Origin: Planctomicrobium piriforme
Lineage (GTDB): Bacteria > Planctomycetota > Planctomycetia > Pirellulales > UBA1268
DNA: 64,000 bases
Reading direction: 5' to 3'
Assembly (NCBI GenBank): GCA_945861585.1
Contig: CAMAVC010000007.1
Coordinates: 1 to 64,000, forward strand
In this document: positions 19,210 to 26,050 of the stretch, piece by piece
How the letters are laid out: each line of letters opens with the position of its first letter
How positions within the stretch are numbered: position 1 is the first letter of the stretch
Program-made: the position numbers and the translations under genes
Notes under the pieces: generated by a model
What the model was told of the DNA's origin: nothing
Databases searched by the model: none
What the model saw: the letters and a program-made list of their open reading frames with translations, nothing else

Positions 19210-20301
19210 TCACCCGATATCGAGGATGCGGGGCAGCGGCGTGTCGGTGGGGAGGCCGAGGATCTCGCGGAGGCGGGTGAGGTCGGCATCGTCGAGCGGT
19301 ACGAAGACGACCGGATCCTGGCAGAGTTCGTGATCGACGAGGCGGTAGGTGACCGTGCCGTCGCGGTCGACGGCGGTCGCGCGGCCGTAGCCGTACATCA
19401 TGTTGTCGACCTTCTCGAAGAAGTCGCGGAGCGTGATCCGGGCCGGCCGCGGCCGGCGGACGTAAAAGAGCTCGATCACGTCGCGCCAGAAGTGGGGGAC
19501 GAACTTTTCGCCGAAGTCGGCGTGGCCGACGCAGTCGCGATTCGTACCGGCGATCAGGTAGGGGAGCGACACGAGGGGGAGCCGCCGTTCACTGCTGCCC
19601 CGTTTGAGCGCGGCGGCGAGATTGAGCGAGAAGTCGGCGCTGTAGCAGTCGTCGAATACGAGGACGAGGTGGCCGAGGTCGACGCCGGGCCTGGCGCCAC
19701 GGCGGCTGGCCGCGCCGTCGAGCAGGGCCGCGGCGAGCCGCTCGACTGGGATCGCGTAGCTCTGGATCTGCGTCGGCAGGCCGTGGCCGAGCACGACGAT
19801 CGTCGTCGGGTTCATCGAGGCGGCCGCGCCCGATACGGCAGTGAGAAAGTCGGCCGCGACCGATCTGATCGTCTCGCCGGGTTCGTCCTTCTTGAAGATC
19901 GTGGCCGTCGTGCCGTAGGCCGTGGCAAGTGCCGTGATCTCCTTGGGGTCGAGGCCCCGGTCGGGGTCGAGCAGGCCGATCAGTGGGCGGTCGGCAGTGA
20001 TGACTGGAACGTCGGCCGCGGCGGTGCGCTGTTCGTCGATGAACCGGGCGAGTGTCGTGAGCAGGTCGGCCTGCTCGTCGCGGGTTCGCGATGCCAGCTG
20101 GTCGGCGTGCTCGCAGGCCAGGTGGAAGAGCGACGGTTCGAGCTGCCTGTAGTGCTTGGGTGTGATTCCCAGCCTCTCGGCCACGAGGGGTGAGAGTTCG
20201 CGTGCGAAGGCGTCGAGCGACGGGGGAAGCCCCGGCTCTGCAGCGAGCGCAGAAGACACCGCGATGACGGCGAGCAACAGGGGCCGGAGGGCGTGGGGCA
20301 T
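19210..20301 (-). CDS. Secreted caspase-fold (C14-like) putative peptidase
   Basis: A 363-residue protein with a signal peptide (LRPLLLAVIAVSSALAAEPG, cleaved near residue 21). The central part resembles caspase/metacaspase-like domains: a hydrophobic strand ends in His173 (TTIVVLGHGLPTQ) and the next core strand ends in Cys219 (HLVLVFDDCYSADFS), the order and context of the family's His-Cys dyad. An acidic residue before the Cys (FDDC) also fits. A helical N-terminal region of about 80 residues and a C-terminal extension flank it. Substrate and role are unknown. The start is the ATG at 20301, divergent from the imuA promoter, 102 bases away. Confidence 0.65.
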   Translation of the reverse strand: MPHALRPLLLAVIAVSSALAAEPGLPPSLDAFARELSPLVAERLGITPKHYRQLEPSLFHLACEHADQLASRTRDEQADLLTTLARFIDEQRTAAADVPVITADRPLIGLLDPDRGLDPKEITALATAYGTTATIFKKDEPGETIRSVAADFLTAVSGAAASMNPTTIVVLGHGLPTQIQSYAIPVERLAAALLDGAASRRGARPGVDLGHLVLVFDDCYSADFSLNLAAALKRGSSERRLPLVSLPYLIAGTNRDCVGHADFGEKFVPHFWRDVIELFYVRRPRPARITLRDFFEKVDNMMYGYGRATAVDRDGTVTYRLVDHELCQDPVVFVPLDDADLTRLREILGLPTDTPLPRILDIG

Positions 20302-20340: not shown

Positions 20341-20368
20341 TTGACGGCCGGGCTGCCGATCGTATAGT
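20341..20368 (+). promoter_or_regulatory. Promoter of the imuA-imuB-dnaE2 operon
   Basis: TTGACG (20341-20346), a 16-base spacer and TATAGT (20363-20368) form the best sigma-70-like promoter in the window. It starts 36-63 bases before the imuA start and overlaps the operator candidate. Confidence 0.7.
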
Positions 20369-20382
20369 GTACGCACGTATAC
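20367..20382 (+). promoter_or_regulatory. Candidate LexA-type operator on the imuA promoter
   Basis: GTGTACGCACGTATAC is an imperfect palindrome of two GTRTAC half-sites separated by four bases (five of six positions symmetric). It overlaps the end of the -10 box and the expected transcription start, the right place to block RNA polymerase. ImuA-ImuB-DnaE2 cassettes are usually LexA-controlled. I do not claim this matches a published planctomycete LexA motif. Confidence 0.5.
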
Positions 20383-20403
20383 AACCAGTATGGAGGCGTG
20401 GCC

Positions 20404-21183
20404 GTGGTGACGGGTGGGCTGCTCGAAACGATGGTGCAGGCGGGCGATTTCGTCGGTTTTTCGGCCGGCTGGCACCGGGGCGACGTGGTGCCGACCGGCT
20501 TCGCGCCGCTCGATCGGCTCCTGCCGGCCGGTGGCGTCCGGCGCGGCAGCCTCGTCGAGTGGCTCTCGGGCGGTGAGGCGTCGGGCGCGGCCGCGCTCGC
20601 CTGCGCGGTGGCGTGCCGGCTGGCCGGGGAGGCGGATCGTGCCGGTGACATGCCGTCCACCATCGTCGTTGTCGATCGTACGGGGCGGTTTTATCCACCG
20701 GCGGTGCTGGGCTGGTTTGAGCGGGCGCGGGTTGCCGGGCGGCCTGCCCCCCGGCTCGTCGTGGCGCGGCCGGCCCACGATGCCGACGAGGTGTGGGCGA
20801 TCGATCAGGCGCTCCGCTGCCGCGGCGTGGCGGCCGTCGTGGCATGGCCAGCCCGCATCCACTCCACGGCCATGCGGCGGTGGCAGTTGGCGGCGCGAGC
20901 GAGCCTTGCGGTGGGCATGTTCATGCGGCCACTCGCGGCCCAGCGTGAGCCGAGCTGGGCGGAGGCGCGCATCGTCGTGACGGCGCGGCCGGGAGGGAGC
21001 CTGGCCGCGCGCCGTCTGCGGCTCGCGCTTGCAGGCGGGCCGTGGGCGGGCGAGGCGCAGTTGCAGGAACGGTCGGTCGAGATTGGCCTCGATCTGGCAT
21101 GTGGCGGTGAGGCGATTCTCCCGCCCGAGGCAGCCGCACCGCGTGTTCACGAACGGGAGCGGGTCGCATGCCGCGCATCATGA
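20404..21183 (+). CDS. imuA: ImuA, RecA-like component of the SOS mutasome
   Basis: A 259-residue protein of the ImuA/SulA-like RecA-fold family. The visible parts are VPTGFAPLDRLLPAGGVRRGSLVEW, where RecA relatives hold their ATP loop (here SGGEASGAAA), and a core strand STIVVVDRTGRFYPPAV. It helps ImuB and DnaE2 copy damaged DNA. GGAGG at 20392-20396 favours GTG 20404 (seven bases) over GTG 20398. Its end overlaps imuB by 16 bases, indicating coupled translation. The operon has a strong promoter overlapped by an operator-like palindrome. Confidence 0.8.
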   Translation: MVTGGLLETMVQAGDFVGFSAGWHRGDVVPTGFAPLDRLLPAGGVRRGSLVEWLSGGEASGAAALACAVACRLAGEADRAGDMPSTIVVVDRTGRFYPPAVLGWFERARVAGRPAPRLVVARPAHDADEVWAIDQALRCRGVAAVVAWPARIHSTAMRRWQLAARASLAVGMFMRPLAAQREPSWAEARIVVTARPGGSLAARRLRLALAGGPWAGEAQLQERSVEIGLDLACGGEAILPPEAAAPRVHERERVACRAS

Positions 21184-22847
21184 CGATCTGGCTGCCGCGG
21201 TGGCCCGTGCAACGTCGGCTCGGCGAGCGGCCAGAGCTGCGCGCGGTGCCGGTATTCGTCTGCCGCCGAGAGCGCCGCGGGGTGATGACGATCGTGTCGT
21301 GGGCCTGGGCGCTGCCACCGCGGCTGGAATCGCCTCGCAGCAGGCGTTCATCGGCGCCGCGCATTCCGCCGGGCATGTCTCTGGCCGAGGGGATGGCCGT
21401 GCTCGCGCTCGCGCATGGGTCGCGTGCCTGCCACATGGCCGAAGTCGATTCCGACGATCCGGCCGCCGATCGGGCGGCGCTCGAGCGCCTGGCGCGGCAG
21501 TGTCGACGATTCGCTCCGATCGTGGCCCTCGAAGACGCCGAGCGGCCCGAATGCATCCATCTCGACGTCACGGGCACGGCAGGCTTCTTCGGTGGCGAAG
21601 CGTCACTCGTGCGCACGGCCGCATGGACACTCGCTGCGCATGGCATCCATGCCCGTGTGGCCATCGCCGACACGCCGGGGGCGTCGTGGGCAGCCGCCCA
21701 CCATGCCGAGCGGCTCGGCCAGCCCCATGCCCCGCCGTTTCATCGTCGGCGCCGGTTCGTCGTCGTGTCGCCCGGTGAGCAGGCCACGGCCTTGGCGGCG
21801 CTGCCTGCGGCGGCGCTCCGCCTCGAGGCAGATGTGCTCACCATCCTCGGTGAGGTGGGCATCGATTCGATCGGTGGCGTGCTCAAGCTGTCGCGCAACA
21901 GCCTCGCTGCGCGGTTCCCGCCGACGCTTGCGATCAGGCTGTCGCAGTTCACCGGCAGCCGGGCCGAGCCGCTCATGCCCACGTTCGGGGAAGCCTTGCC
22001 GCAGGCGGCGCATGCCTGTGACGTCCCGGTGTCGCTCCGGGAGATGGATGCGGATTCGATCGCGGCCGTGCTCGAGCGTCTCGTCGGGCAGTGCATGGCG
22101 GAGCTCATGGCCCGCGGGCAAGGGATCACCGCGCTCCAGGTACGGTTCGAGCCGTATGCGGGCGTCGGTGACCGGGGAACCTGCCCTCCCGTCGTGATCG
22201 ACGTCGGGCTCTACCGTCCGACGGTCGCCGTGCGGCACGTGGTCGAGCTCGTGCGGCTGCGCATGGCTCGCGTGCGCATGCCACGAGAGATCGAAGGGAT
22301 CGCCGTGGAGGTGGTGGCGGCCGCCCCGGCGCTCTGCCGGCAGCGCACGCTCTTTTCTGGTGCGAGCTCTGGTGCGAGCGAGTCGGCGGCGGCGGAAGTG
22401 GGAATGTTGTTCGACCGGCTCGCCGGCCGACTCGGCGCGAAGGCGGTGGTCGAGCCCCATCTCGTGCGCGACGCACAGCCCGAGCATGCGTGGATGGGCA
22501 TGCCGCCGGCTGGCGGAGCATCCCGTGCGTCGGCGACACAAACGCGGCTTGCCGCGCCGGCGGAGCGCCGGCCGAGCTGGCTCTTCCCGCGGCCCGTGGT
22601 GCTCGACGTGGTGGCGGTGGTATCCGCCGCGACGGATGCCGGCCGGCCACCCGTACGGTTTCGGCACGGTGGCCAGGTGCACGATGTGGCCGCGGCCCAC
22701 GGGCCGGAACGAATCGAGACAGCCTGGTGGCGCGGGCCGATCGTGCGGCGCGACTACTACGTGGTCGAGACGCAGACGGGGGGGCGGTTTTGGATCTTTC
22801 GGCGGCTGAAAGATGGGGGCTGGTTTCTGCATGGCGTGTTTGCCTGA
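21168..22847 (+). CDS. imuB: ImuB, inactive Y-family polymerase-like mutasome hub
   Basis: A 559-residue DNA polymerase Y-family protein. The N-terminus MTIWLPRWPVQRRLGERPEL is typical of ImuB and lacks the catalytic acidic residue found there in active Y-family enzymes, so it should act as an adaptor linking the sliding clamp, ImuA and DnaE2. A helix-hairpin-helix-like region (LTILGEVGIDSIGGVLKLSR) lies mid-protein. The C-terminal 100 residues end RRDYYVVETQTGGRFWIFRR, a conserved tail of the family. It overlaps imuA by 16 bases and lies 26 bases before dnaE2. Confidence 0.88.
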   Translation: MPRIMTIWLPRWPVQRRLGERPELRAVPVFVCRRERRGVMTIVSWAWALPPRLESPRSRRSSAPRIPPGMSLAEGMAVLALAHGSRACHMAEVDSDDPAADRAALERLARQCRRFAPIVALEDAERPECIHLDVTGTAGFFGGEASLVRTAAWTLAAHGIHARVAIADTPGASWAAAHHAERLGQPHAPPFHRRRRFVVVSPGEQATALAALPAAALRLEADVLTILGEVGIDSIGGVLKLSRNSLAARFPPTLAIRLSQFTGSRAEPLMPTFGEALPQAAHACDVPVSLREMDADSIAAVLERLVGQCMAELMARGQGITALQVRFEPYAGVGDRGTCPPVVIDVGLYRPTVAVRHVVELVRLRMARVRMPREIEGIAVEVVAAAPALCRQRTLFSGASSGASESAAAEVGMLFDRLAGRLGAKAVVEPHLVRDAQPEHAWMGMPPAGGASRASATQTRLAAPAERRPSWLFPRPVVLDVVAVVSAATDAGRPPVRFRHGGQVHDVAAAHGPERIETAWWRGPIVRRDYYVVETQTGGRFWIFRRLKDGGWFLHGVFA

Positions 22848-22873
22848 CGTGTGGGCCCGAAGAGGAGGAAGCG

Positions 22874-25800
22874 ATGGCTGGAACAGGGGGTGATCGGATG
22901 GAACCGCGTTATACCGAGCTTCATTGCACGAGCAATTTTTCGTTTCTGCGCGGAGCATCGCATCCGGACGAGCTCGTGCAGACAGCCGCAGCCCTCGGCT
23001 ACGACGCCCTGGCAATCACCGACCGTGGCACCCTCAGCGGTATCGTGCGGGCGCACGGTGCCGCGAAGCAGGCGGGGCTGAAGCTCATCGTCGGGGCGCA
23101 TCTCGAGCCCTGCGATGCGGCGCCGCTCGTCGTCTGGGCCGCCGACCGGACGGGCTATGCGAATCTCTGCCGGCTGCTCACCCGCGGCTCTGCGCGGGCT
23201 GCAGAGGAAGGTGGCGAGGGCCCGGAGGGGCGGTGTGTGCTCACCTTCGACGACATCGCGGCTCATGCGGGCGGCCTCTTGGCAGGCATGCCGTTGGCGA
23301 TGCTCGCGGAGCCGCTCGAGCACCTCGCCCACTGGCGGAGCGTGTTCGACGACCGGCTCTGGGCGCTCGCCGAGGTGGCGCTCGAGGGCGACGACGACGA
23401 TCGCCTGCGGGAGTTCGCCCGCCTGGCTCAGCTGGCTGGCGTGCCCGTGGCGGCGGCCGGCGACGTGCGCTATCACGAGCGGGCCCGGCTGGCGCTGGCC
23501 GACGTGCTCACGGCCGTGCGGCTCGGAGGCACGGTGGATGCGATTCGCGGCGAGCTCCTCACGAATGGCGAGCGGCATCTGCACGAACGCCGGCGAATCG
23601 CCGAGCGGTTTCGCGCCCTGCCCGGAGCCCTCGAACGCACCGTCGAGATCGCTGGGCGGTGCACGTTCTCGCTCGACGAACTGCAGTATGAATACCCCGA
23701 GGCAAACGTGCCGGCCGGCCGCTCGGCTCGGGAGCATCTGGCCCACCTTGCCTGGAAGGGAGCCGCACAGCGCTATCCCGACGGGATTCCCGAGAAGGTT
23801 CGCGAGCTCGTGGCCCATGAGCTCGCGCTCGTCGCCGAGCTCGGCTATGAGGCCTACTTCCTCACCGTGTTCGACATCGTGCGGTTCGCCCGCCGCCGCG
23901 GCATTCTGTGCCAGGGCCGGGGGTCGGCGGCCAATTCGGCAGTCTGCTATTGCCTGGGCATCACGTCGGTCGATCCGGCGCGCATGAACGTGCTGTTCGA
24001 GCGGTTTGTGAGCCGTGAGCGGCGCGAGGCCCCCGACATCGACATCGATTTCGAGCACGACCGCCGCGAAGAGGTGATCCAATACATCTACAGCACCTAC
24101 GGTCGCACCCGTGCGGCGATGACTGCCGAGGTGATCTCGTATCGCCTGCGTTCGGCCGTCCGCGACGTCGCCAAAGCGCTGGGTTTTTCGCTCGATCGGG
24201 TCGATCACCTCGCTGAAGCGATCGATGTGGGGGATGGGGTGGAAGACCTGCCGACGCGGCTGGCCGAGGCGGGGCTCGACCCGACGAGCCCCGCGTGCAC
24301 GCATCTCACGGCGCTCGTCGGCCAGGTCATCGGCTTTCCCCGCCACCTCGGGCAGCACGTGGGGGGCATGGTGATGACCCGGGGCGAACTGTGTGACCTC
24401 GTGCCGATCCAGCCGGCCACGATGGAAGGCCGCACGATCGTGCAATGGGACAAGAACGACCTCGACGAACTGGGCATTCTGAAAGTCGATTGCCTCGCCC
24501 TCGGCATGCTGTCGGCGATCCACCGGGCGTTCGACCTCGTGGCCGAGGCCGGGGGGCCGCAACTCACGCTGGCGACGGTGCCGGCGGAAGACCCGGCCGT
24601 TTACGAGATGATCTCCCGCGCCGATACGGTGGGCGTGTTTCAGATCGAGAGTCGGGCGCAGATGAGCATGCTGCCCCGGCTCAAGCCGCGGTGCTTCTAC
24701 GACCTCGTGATCGAGGTGGCGATCGTGCGGCCGGGGCCGATCCAGGGCGACATGGTGCATCCCTATCTGCGCCGGCGGGCGGGCGAAGACCCCGTCATCT
24801 ATCCCAACGACGCGATCCGCGAGGTGCTCGAGAAGACGCTCGGCGTGCCGCTCTTTCAGGAGCAGGCGATGCGGCTGGCGGTGGTGGCGGCCGGCTTCAC
24901 GCCGGGCGAGGCCGATCAATTGCGGCGGGCGATGGGGGCCTGGCGACGGCCGGGGCTGATCGAGGAGTTTCGGCAGAAGCTCATCAATGGCATGCTCGCG
25001 CGGGGCCTGTCGCAGCAGTTCGCCGAGCAGGTGTTCGGGCAGATTCGGGGCTTCGGCGAATACGGCTTTCCCGAATCCCATGCCGCAAGTTTTGCCTTGC
25101 TCGTCTATGTGTCGGCCTGGCTCAAGTGCCATCATCCGGCCGCCTTCACTGCCGCGCTCCTGGGCAGCCAGCCGATGGGGTTCTACGCCCCTGCCCAGCT
25201 TGTGCGTGATGCCAAGGCGCATGGCGTGAGAGTGTTGCCGGCCGACGTCAACTCGAGCTGCTGGCATGCCACGCTCGAAGGCCGGCTGAAAGCCGGCCAT
25301 GAGAGACAGCCGGCGATTCGGCTGGGCCTCGAGCAGGTGTATGGCCTGAGCGAGGCGGTGGCCTCGAGGATCGAAGCGGCCCGTCGCGAGGGGGCCTTCC
25401 GGCTGCCACGCGAGCTCGCCCGCCGCGCCGGGCTCGATCGCGACGCGCTGTTGCATCTGGCTCGGGCGGGGGCGCTCGCCTCGCTCGGCCTCGATCGGCG
25501 GCGGGCGGTGTGGGAGGCGATGCAGTGGCTGGAGCGGCCGGCAGCCCGGCCGCTCTTCGCAGAGCTCGACGACGACGATGACGAAAGCGACGGCGACCTG
25601 CTGCCAGTGCTCGCACCCGAGGAAGAGGTGGTGGCCGACTACCGCACCGCCGGCCTGTCGCTCGCCGGCCATCCGCTGCAGTTCGACCGCGACTGGCTCG
25701 CCGCTCGCAGCGTGGCGACCACTGCCGAGGTGGCCGGGCTGCCAGAGGGCCGCCGTGTGGCCGTGGCTGGCATCGTGCTCACGCGGCAGCGGCCCGCGAC

Positions 25801-26050
25801 CGCGAAGGGGATGATTTTTCTCACGATCGAAGACGAAACCGGCGCTGCCAACATCGTCGTCCATCCGCGCGTGTGGGAGGCAGCCGACCTCGCCGCCCGC
25901 CGCGCCGCTGTGCTCGTGGTGCACGGCCGGATCCAGCGGCGCGGCGCAGTGGTGCACGTGGTGAGCACGCGGCTCGAATCGGCCGCCACCCTCCGCCCCG
26001 AAACCTCTCCCGCCACCGCCCTGCCCCGCATGTCCCGCGATTTCTGCTGA
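22874..26050 (+). CDS. dnaE2: Error-prone DNA polymerase III alpha-like DnaE2
   Basis: A 1058-residue C-family polymerase, the length of DnaE2 rather than the roughly 1150 residues of replicative DnaE. It has an N-terminal PHP domain (ELHCTSNFSFLRGASHPDEL, ALAITDRGTLSGIVRAH), a polymerase core with the catalytic Asp residues in APDIDIDFEHDRR, and an OB-fold near the C-terminus (VAVAGIVLTRQRPATAKGM). With ImuA and ImuB it performs mutagenic lesion bypass. GGAGG five bases before the ATG at 22874 decides the start. It is the last gene of the cassette; a repeat region follows. Confidence 0.93.
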   Translation: MAGTGGDRMEPRYTELHCTSNFSFLRGASHPDELVQTAAALGYDALAITDRGTLSGIVRAHGAAKQAGLKLIVGAHLEPCDAAPLVVWAADRTGYANLCRLLTRGSARAAEEGGEGPEGRCVLTFDDIAAHAGGLLAGMPLAMLAEPLEHLAHWRSVFDDRLWALAEVALEGDDDDRLREFARLAQLAGVPVAAAGDVRYHERARLALADVLTAVRLGGTVDAIRGELLTNGERHLHERRRIAERFRALPGALERTVEIAGRCTFSLDELQYEYPEANVPAGRSAREHLAHLAWKGAAQRYPDGIPEKVRELVAHELALVAELGYEAYFLTVFDIVRFARRRGILCQGRGSAANSAVCYCLGITSVDPARMNVLFERFVSRERREAPDIDIDFEHDRREEVIQYIYSTYGRTRAAMTAEVISYRLRSAVRDVAKALGFSLDRVDHLAEAIDVGDGVEDLPTRLAEAGLDPTSPACTHLTALVGQVIGFPRHLGQHVGGMVMTRGELCDLVPIQPATMEGRTIVQWDKNDLDELGILKVDCLALGMLSAIHRAFDLVAEAGGPQLTLATVPAEDPAVYEMISRADTVGVFQIESRAQMSMLPRLKPRCFYDLVIEVAIVRPGPIQGDMVHPYLRRRAGEDPVIYPNDAIREVLEKTLGVPLFQEQAMRLAVVAAGFTPGEADQLRRAMGAWRRPGLIEEFRQKLINGMLARGLSQQFAEQVFGQIRGFGEYGFPESHAASFALLVYVSAWLKCHHPAAFTAALLGSQPMGFYAPAQLVRDAKAHGVRVLPADVNSSCWHATLEGRLKAGHERQPAIRLGLEQVYGLSEAVASRIEAARREGAFRLPRELARRAGLDRDALLHLARAGALASLGLDRRRAVWEAMQWLERPAARPLFAELDDDDDESDGDLLPVLAPEEEVVADYRTAGLSLAGHPLQFDRDWLAARSVATTAEVAGLPEGRRVAVAGIVLTRQRPATAKGMIFLTIEDETGAANIVVHPRVWEAADLAARRAAVLVVHGRIQRRGAVVHVVSTRLESAATLRPETSPATALPRMSRDFC

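Follow-up and report, generated by a model that had tools for sequence, protein, structure and literature searches.

The LexA box of cyanobacteria is RGTACNNNDGTWCB, or AGTACWNWTGTACT, according to the accessible part of PMC3091678, and that of Gram-positive bacteria is CGAAC-N4-GTTCG (GAAC-N4-GTTC), as given in the accessible parts of PMC3323433 and PMC3091678; the former source also gives the E. coli box, CTGT-N8-ACAG. For planctomycete LexA, the accessible text of PMC3108266 says only that it does not recognise the E. coli motif, and that of PMC8565304 counts 17 LexA motifs as reported, with Planctomycetes unmentioned there. We found no planctomycete LexA box in the literature searched, most subscription papers aside. 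The Verrucomicrobia consensus is reportedly TGTTC-N4-GAACA. Here, we describe a palindrome on the imuA promoter of an uncultured planctomycete; it is very probably the operator (SOS box) by which LexA governs the imuA-imuB-dnaE2 genes. Because the same sequence precedes lexA, recA, ssb and ribonucleotide reductase genes in relatives, the box is most likely the SOS switch of the lineage.

The operon lies in a stretch of 64,000 nt, analysed as a whole (the window). The imuA promoter (+ strand) has a -35 element, TTGACG (20341-20346), and a -10 element, TATAGT (20363-20368), separated by a 16-nt spacer (20347-20362); TTGAC is equally spaced in the aligned imuA promoters of the family and TATA[CG]T is conserved in relatives. 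The predicted LexA operator, GTGTACGCACGTATAC (20367-20382, + strand), with the core TGTACGCACGTATA (20368-20381, + strand), covers the last two bases of this -10 element and presumably also the likely transcription start point of imuA. This is the overlap with the core promoter expected of a LexA-regulated (SOS) promoter. The original prediction, that a palindrome overlaps the -10 end of TTGACG-N16-TATAGT, proved exact in its coordinates (20341-20382). Read as an inverted repeat, the 16-mer is self-complementary at 6 of 8 base pairs (12 of 16 positions), and GTRTACN4GTRTAC is found without mismatch at one place in the window. A ribosome-binding site, GGAGG (20392-20396, + strand), is also conserved in relatives.

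Judged by sequence, the closest designs are the cyanobacterial and Gram-positive boxes, both with five-base half-sites and four bases between them. Like the cyanobacterial box, the predicted operator is a pseudo-palindrome of 14 bp whose GTAC-like half-sites are separated by four bases, found on lexA, recA and ssb among others; unlike it, the outer pair is T...A rather than the A...T of cyanobacteria, TGAAC and TATAC half-sites are also in use, and the cyanobacterial consensus matched 0/43 imuA, 0/50 lexA and 0/36 recA regions. With the Gram-positive box it shares the 5-bp half-sites and the four-base spacer, with TGAAC and GTTCA half-sites at lexA, recA and ssb, but GAAC-N4-GTTC itself was present in only 1/43 imuA, 1/50 lexA and 3/36 recA regions. 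The Verrucomicrobia box has the same architecture and the same outer T...A, yet TGTTC-N4-GAACA matched 1/43 imuA, 0/50 lexA and 1/36 recA regions. The E. coli box is likewise palindromic and lies on the core promoters of SOS genes, although CTGT-N8-ACAG was absent from the imuA promoter, the genome's own lexA and all of the 129 regions compared (43 imuA, 50 lexA and 36 recA). CGAAC-N4-GTTCG and RGTACNNNDGTWCB were also each found in 0/129 regions; CTG-N10-CAG matched 17/129, GAAC-N4-GTTC 5/129, GTTC-N7-GTTC 1/129 and TGTTC-N4-GAACA 2/129 (sums over the table of counts). The imuA promoter of the window and the own lexA region gave no match to any of seven other LexA box patterns. By pattern match, the box at the imuA promoter differs, as had been predicted, from both CGAAC-N4-GTTCG and CTG-N10-CAG; its architecture is still Gram-positive/cyanobacterial.

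The genes downstream form an ImuA-ImuB-DnaE2 cassette, i.e. three genes in order with a DnaE2-type polymerase, as they had been assigned beforehand. imuA (20404-21183, + strand) likely starts at GTG 20404 (the open reading frame is listed from 20398), which aligns with ATGGTGACG of relatives; its product matches NF033429 at E 1e-23, below the family cut-off. imuB (21168-22847, + strand) overlaps imuA by 16 nt and is assigned by position and a weak IMS match only (E 0.07). dnaE2 (22868-26050, + strand; start assumed) encodes an error-prone DNA polymerase III alpha, with a match to NF004225 at 1398 bits, above cut-off. The closest DnaE2 proteins among the named loci are from uncultured Planctomycetota, several of them labelled Planctomycetaceae or Pirellulales; the genome may thus belong to the order Pirellulales. 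A divergent open reading frame without any Pfam match (19210-20301, - strand) has the imuA intergenic region in common with the operon.

A palindromic matrix was trained on 36 sequences upstream of lexA and recA from other families; imuA and the window's own family were excluded. It reads T[GA][TA]AC-N4-GT[TA][CT]A, with half-site frequencies of T 0.97; G 0.59 or A 0.39; T 0.78 or A 0.18; A 0.92; and C 0.85. With this matrix, position 20368 scored best of the 63,987 positions in the window, at 17.83 bits vs 8.89 for the runner-up, and 0/100 dinucleotide shuffles of the window reached its score. Set against this shared core, the half-site GTRTAC of the original prediction turned out slightly too strict, and the outer G and C of the 16-mer are not general. 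Among imuA boxes, the half-sites carry 1.76 bits per column vs 0.61 for the N4, the rows having been picked by the same matrix. The matrix is ready for use on the SOS regulon of one order of Planctomycetota.

Six promoter sets (imuA, lexA and recA, each for the family and the order) were also searched de novo for palindromes, the spacing being left free between 0 and 10. This returned TGTAC-N4-GTACA from the imuA family set (28 sequences) and again from the recA order set (16 genomes of other families), with T[AG]TAC-N4-GTA[CT]A from the lexA order set (20 genomes of other families); the spacing was 4 in all three. The top motif was other than the dyad in 3/6 sets (imuA order, lexA family and recA family): that of the lexA family was an inner GTATA...ATAC repeat, and that of the recA family an unrelated repeat.

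To follow the box across genes and relatives, sites were called at 10 bits or more with the trained matrix, and the expectation was taken from shuffled sequences. The genomes covered were 43/47 with a match for imuA, 50/58 for lexA and 36/54 for recA, the remainder being unfetched or at contig ends. As the matrix had been trained on the lexA and recA order sets, only the results for imuA and for the family sets count as independent. At imuA, the box was called in 23/28 genomes of the family (shuffled 0.39) and 11/15 of the order (0.21), a total of 34/43. Re-extraction of four imuA genes whose first aligned piece began further upstream raised this to 36/43 by adding two genomes (G020 and G027), with no imuA box found in the other two (G011 and G024); imuA is then without a box in 7/43 genomes, including one (G016) where it runs off the contig. 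The box preceded lexA in 29/30 genomes of the family (shuffled 0.42) and 18/20 of the order (0.74), 47/50 in total, and recA in 12/20 (0.23) and 16/16 (0.37), 28/36 in total. The genome's own lexA carries TGAACAGCCGTATA. A box on lexA itself is as expected for autoregulation, and the proposal of an SOS box for this lineage, with the motif to be sought upstream of lexA or recA, is supported by these sites, by those at ssb and the reductase gene, and by the trained matrix.

The box was present in 28/30 ssb promoters and in 29/29 of the class II ribonucleotide reductase promoters read, one more being off its contig. In 130,771 positions of the 30 reductase loci there were 29 sites of at least 13.5 bits, equal to the number of promoters read. 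One predicted switch would control ribonucleotide reductase and SSB together with the mutagenic polymerase. The reductase promoters (L301-L330) have a box of the type TATAC-N4-GTATA, and no other target is as constant.

Beyond the order, the box becomes weaker. It was found at lexA in only 4/9 further genomes of the order, in 9/14 from a different family of the class (1 of them high-scoring), in 0/4 of yet another family of the class and in 0/26 of other classes of the phylum; these counts beyond the first set are of rows with a locus returned, minus those already counted, rather than of all genomes searched.

Exact or near-exact copies were also sought in whole genomes. Allowing at most one mismatch, GTRTACN4GTAYAC gave 16 sites in the 3.67-Mb own genome vs 2 for the reversed control. 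Exact GTRTACN4GTAYAC occurred at 53 sites in 30/59 related genomes, with 2 for the control pattern (summed over the table). On comparison of coordinates, exact sites lay just upstream of imuA in five genomes (G002, G005, G006, G013 and G022); others were just upstream of the class II ribonucleotide reductase gene in six (G036, G044, G048, G050, G051 and G053) and of ssb in one (G017). A count on 80 named DnaE2 loci, up to 4.5 kb upstream of dnaE2, gave scores of at least 10 bits in 31 and at least 12 bits in 23, and was set aside because several matches in distant taxa and proteobacteria look like chance.

Several promoters carry tandem sites. Those of lexA in the family have two boxes, TGAAC-N4-GTATA and GATAC-N4-GT[TC]CA, 18 bases apart, and recA promoters often have two. 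At imuA, some relatives have a second box 15 bases upstream, reading GGAAC-N4-GTATA or AGTAC-N4-GTATA (L019, L024, L025, L028 and L035); the window copy, CTGCCGATCGTATA (20353-20366, + strand), keeps only the right half, GTATA, and appears to be a decayed second box that has lost its left half. Other repeats were seen nearby. In the family lexA loci L047-L076, an inner repeat, GTATAgtaaGATAC, is conserved; it spans the -10 and is flanked by the two boxes. A second conserved inverted repeat, AAATCGcTCGATTT, is downstream of the recA box (family recA loci, e.g. L205, L206 and L211). A TGTTCTTTTGTTCA site next to TTGAAT immediately precedes dnaE2 in Planctomycetes bacterium Pan216 (L130, 4374) and could be a related box of another lineage.

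The genome has a single match to LexA_DNA_bind (PF01726). It lies in a protein of 250 residues that also has the S24 domain (PF00717) and scores above the cut-off of TIGR00498, and alignment to solved LexAs places in it the Ser and Lys that serve self-cleavage in E. coli LexA. By these domains, TIGR00498 and the alignments, a LexA with DNA-binding and self-cleaving domains is encoded. The accessible part of PMC3091678 lists the self-cleavage Ser and Lys of LexA and gives Ser39, Asn41, Ala42, Glu44 and Glu45 as DNA contacts of the E. coli protein. Compared with the E. coli recognition helix, SPN is kept with GVVC in place of AAEE, the contacts Ala42, Glu44 and Glu45 being replaced by Gly, Val and Cys. 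The helix SPNGV[VM]CHLKAL is common to most LexAs read in the class, and SPNGVVCHLKALE[RK]KG to 24/30 family LexAs, the other 6 being without a match to this regular expression; most LexAs read from the other classes of the phylum have a different helix. The relatives that are poor in boxes at lexA (4/9, 9/14 and 0/4) have nearly the same recognition helix, which argues against a simple helix-box rule. With its box, the lineage adds an example to the question of why LexA recognition sequences differ from phylum to phylum.

Four things can be read from the DNA: the operator-like site, its likeness to the boxes at lexA and recA, its retention in imuA promoters, and a LexA with an autoprotease domain. 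From these we infer how binding, promoter occlusion, cleavage and induction may proceed. Bound as a dimer, LexA would set a winged helix-turn-helix on each of the half-sites, TGTAC and GTATA with four bases between them; lying over the end of the -10 element and the transcription start, it would keep RNA polymerase out. Once DNA is damaged, RecA bound to single strands would promote the self-cleavage of LexA, and the mutasome genes would then be transcribed.

The box could instead belong to another repressor having the same regulon, in which case LexA would have its sites elsewhere. The strongest boxes are those of the ribonucleotide reductase gene, which is ruled by NrdR in other bacteria, and among relatives whose recognition helix is nearly identical some are without a strong lexA box; both would fit such a repressor. 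We consider this improbable nonetheless, since 47/50 genomes have the box on lexA and it also occurs at recA, imuA and ssb, since just one LexA_DNA_bind match exists in the genome, and since in other classes the absence of the box from 26/26 lexA promoters goes mostly with a different recognition helix.

That the palindrome serves mainly the divergent gene (19210-20301), with imuA carrying it by proximity, would be compatible with the start of that reading frame some 65 bases off in the same intergenic region. Across relatives, however, the box is fixed relative to the -35 and -10 of imuA and tracks that gene, and we give this explanation hardly any weight. That the palindrome arose by chance, or follows from a TATA-like promoter sequence, might be suspected from the resemblance of the half-site GTATA to a -10 element and from the two-base overlap of the box with the -10; it is made highly implausible by the failure of every window shuffle to reach the score, by the excess of sites over control patterns in whole genomes, by conservation in 36/43 genomes and by the GTACA and GTTCA half-sites downstream of the -10, which are no promoter elements.

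The own genome (3.67 Mb in 157 contigs, 94.9% complete) was also scanned for a relaxed form of the box. TRWACN4GTWYA occurs at 17 sites vs 4 in the control, including those at imuA, lexA (C52:10235), ssb (PF00436) and the class II reductase gene (PF08471); recA of this genome is truncated by the end of its contig, and the recA box is seen in relatives. Further boxes precede genes for a Y1 transposase, two BrnT-like proteins (their matches below the Pfam cut-off), a ParE-like and an AbiEii-like protein, and three short proteins with an RPFxPF motif. Possibly these are SOS-controlled toxin or mobile genes. A planctomycete SOS regulon of unusual make-up can tentatively be drawn, with a core of lexA, recA, imuA-imuB-dnaE2, ssb and the class II reductase gene and an outer layer of the toxin-like and mobile genes with a box on their promoters (BrnT-like, ParE-like, AbiEii-like, Y1 transposase and short RPFxPF proteins), although we hold this two-layered arrangement to be somewhat doubtful. 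If it were true, DNA damage would switch on mutagenesis together with a toxin or mobile-element programme.

Fifteen own-genome loci were read, with C110:9484 left out. One site (C1:59496) is apparently inside a coding sequence, and in 12/15 loci the box is preceded on one strand, within 34 bases, by TTGAC, TTGCA or TTGCC. The toxin-like, transposase and RPFxPF boxes are at C8:10538, C9:13643, C13:32279, C27:6695, C27:9242, C34:17990, C41:13295 and C43:19454 (L220, L221, L222, L225, L226, L227, L229 and L230), and most of these eight have TTGAC or TTGCA just upstream.
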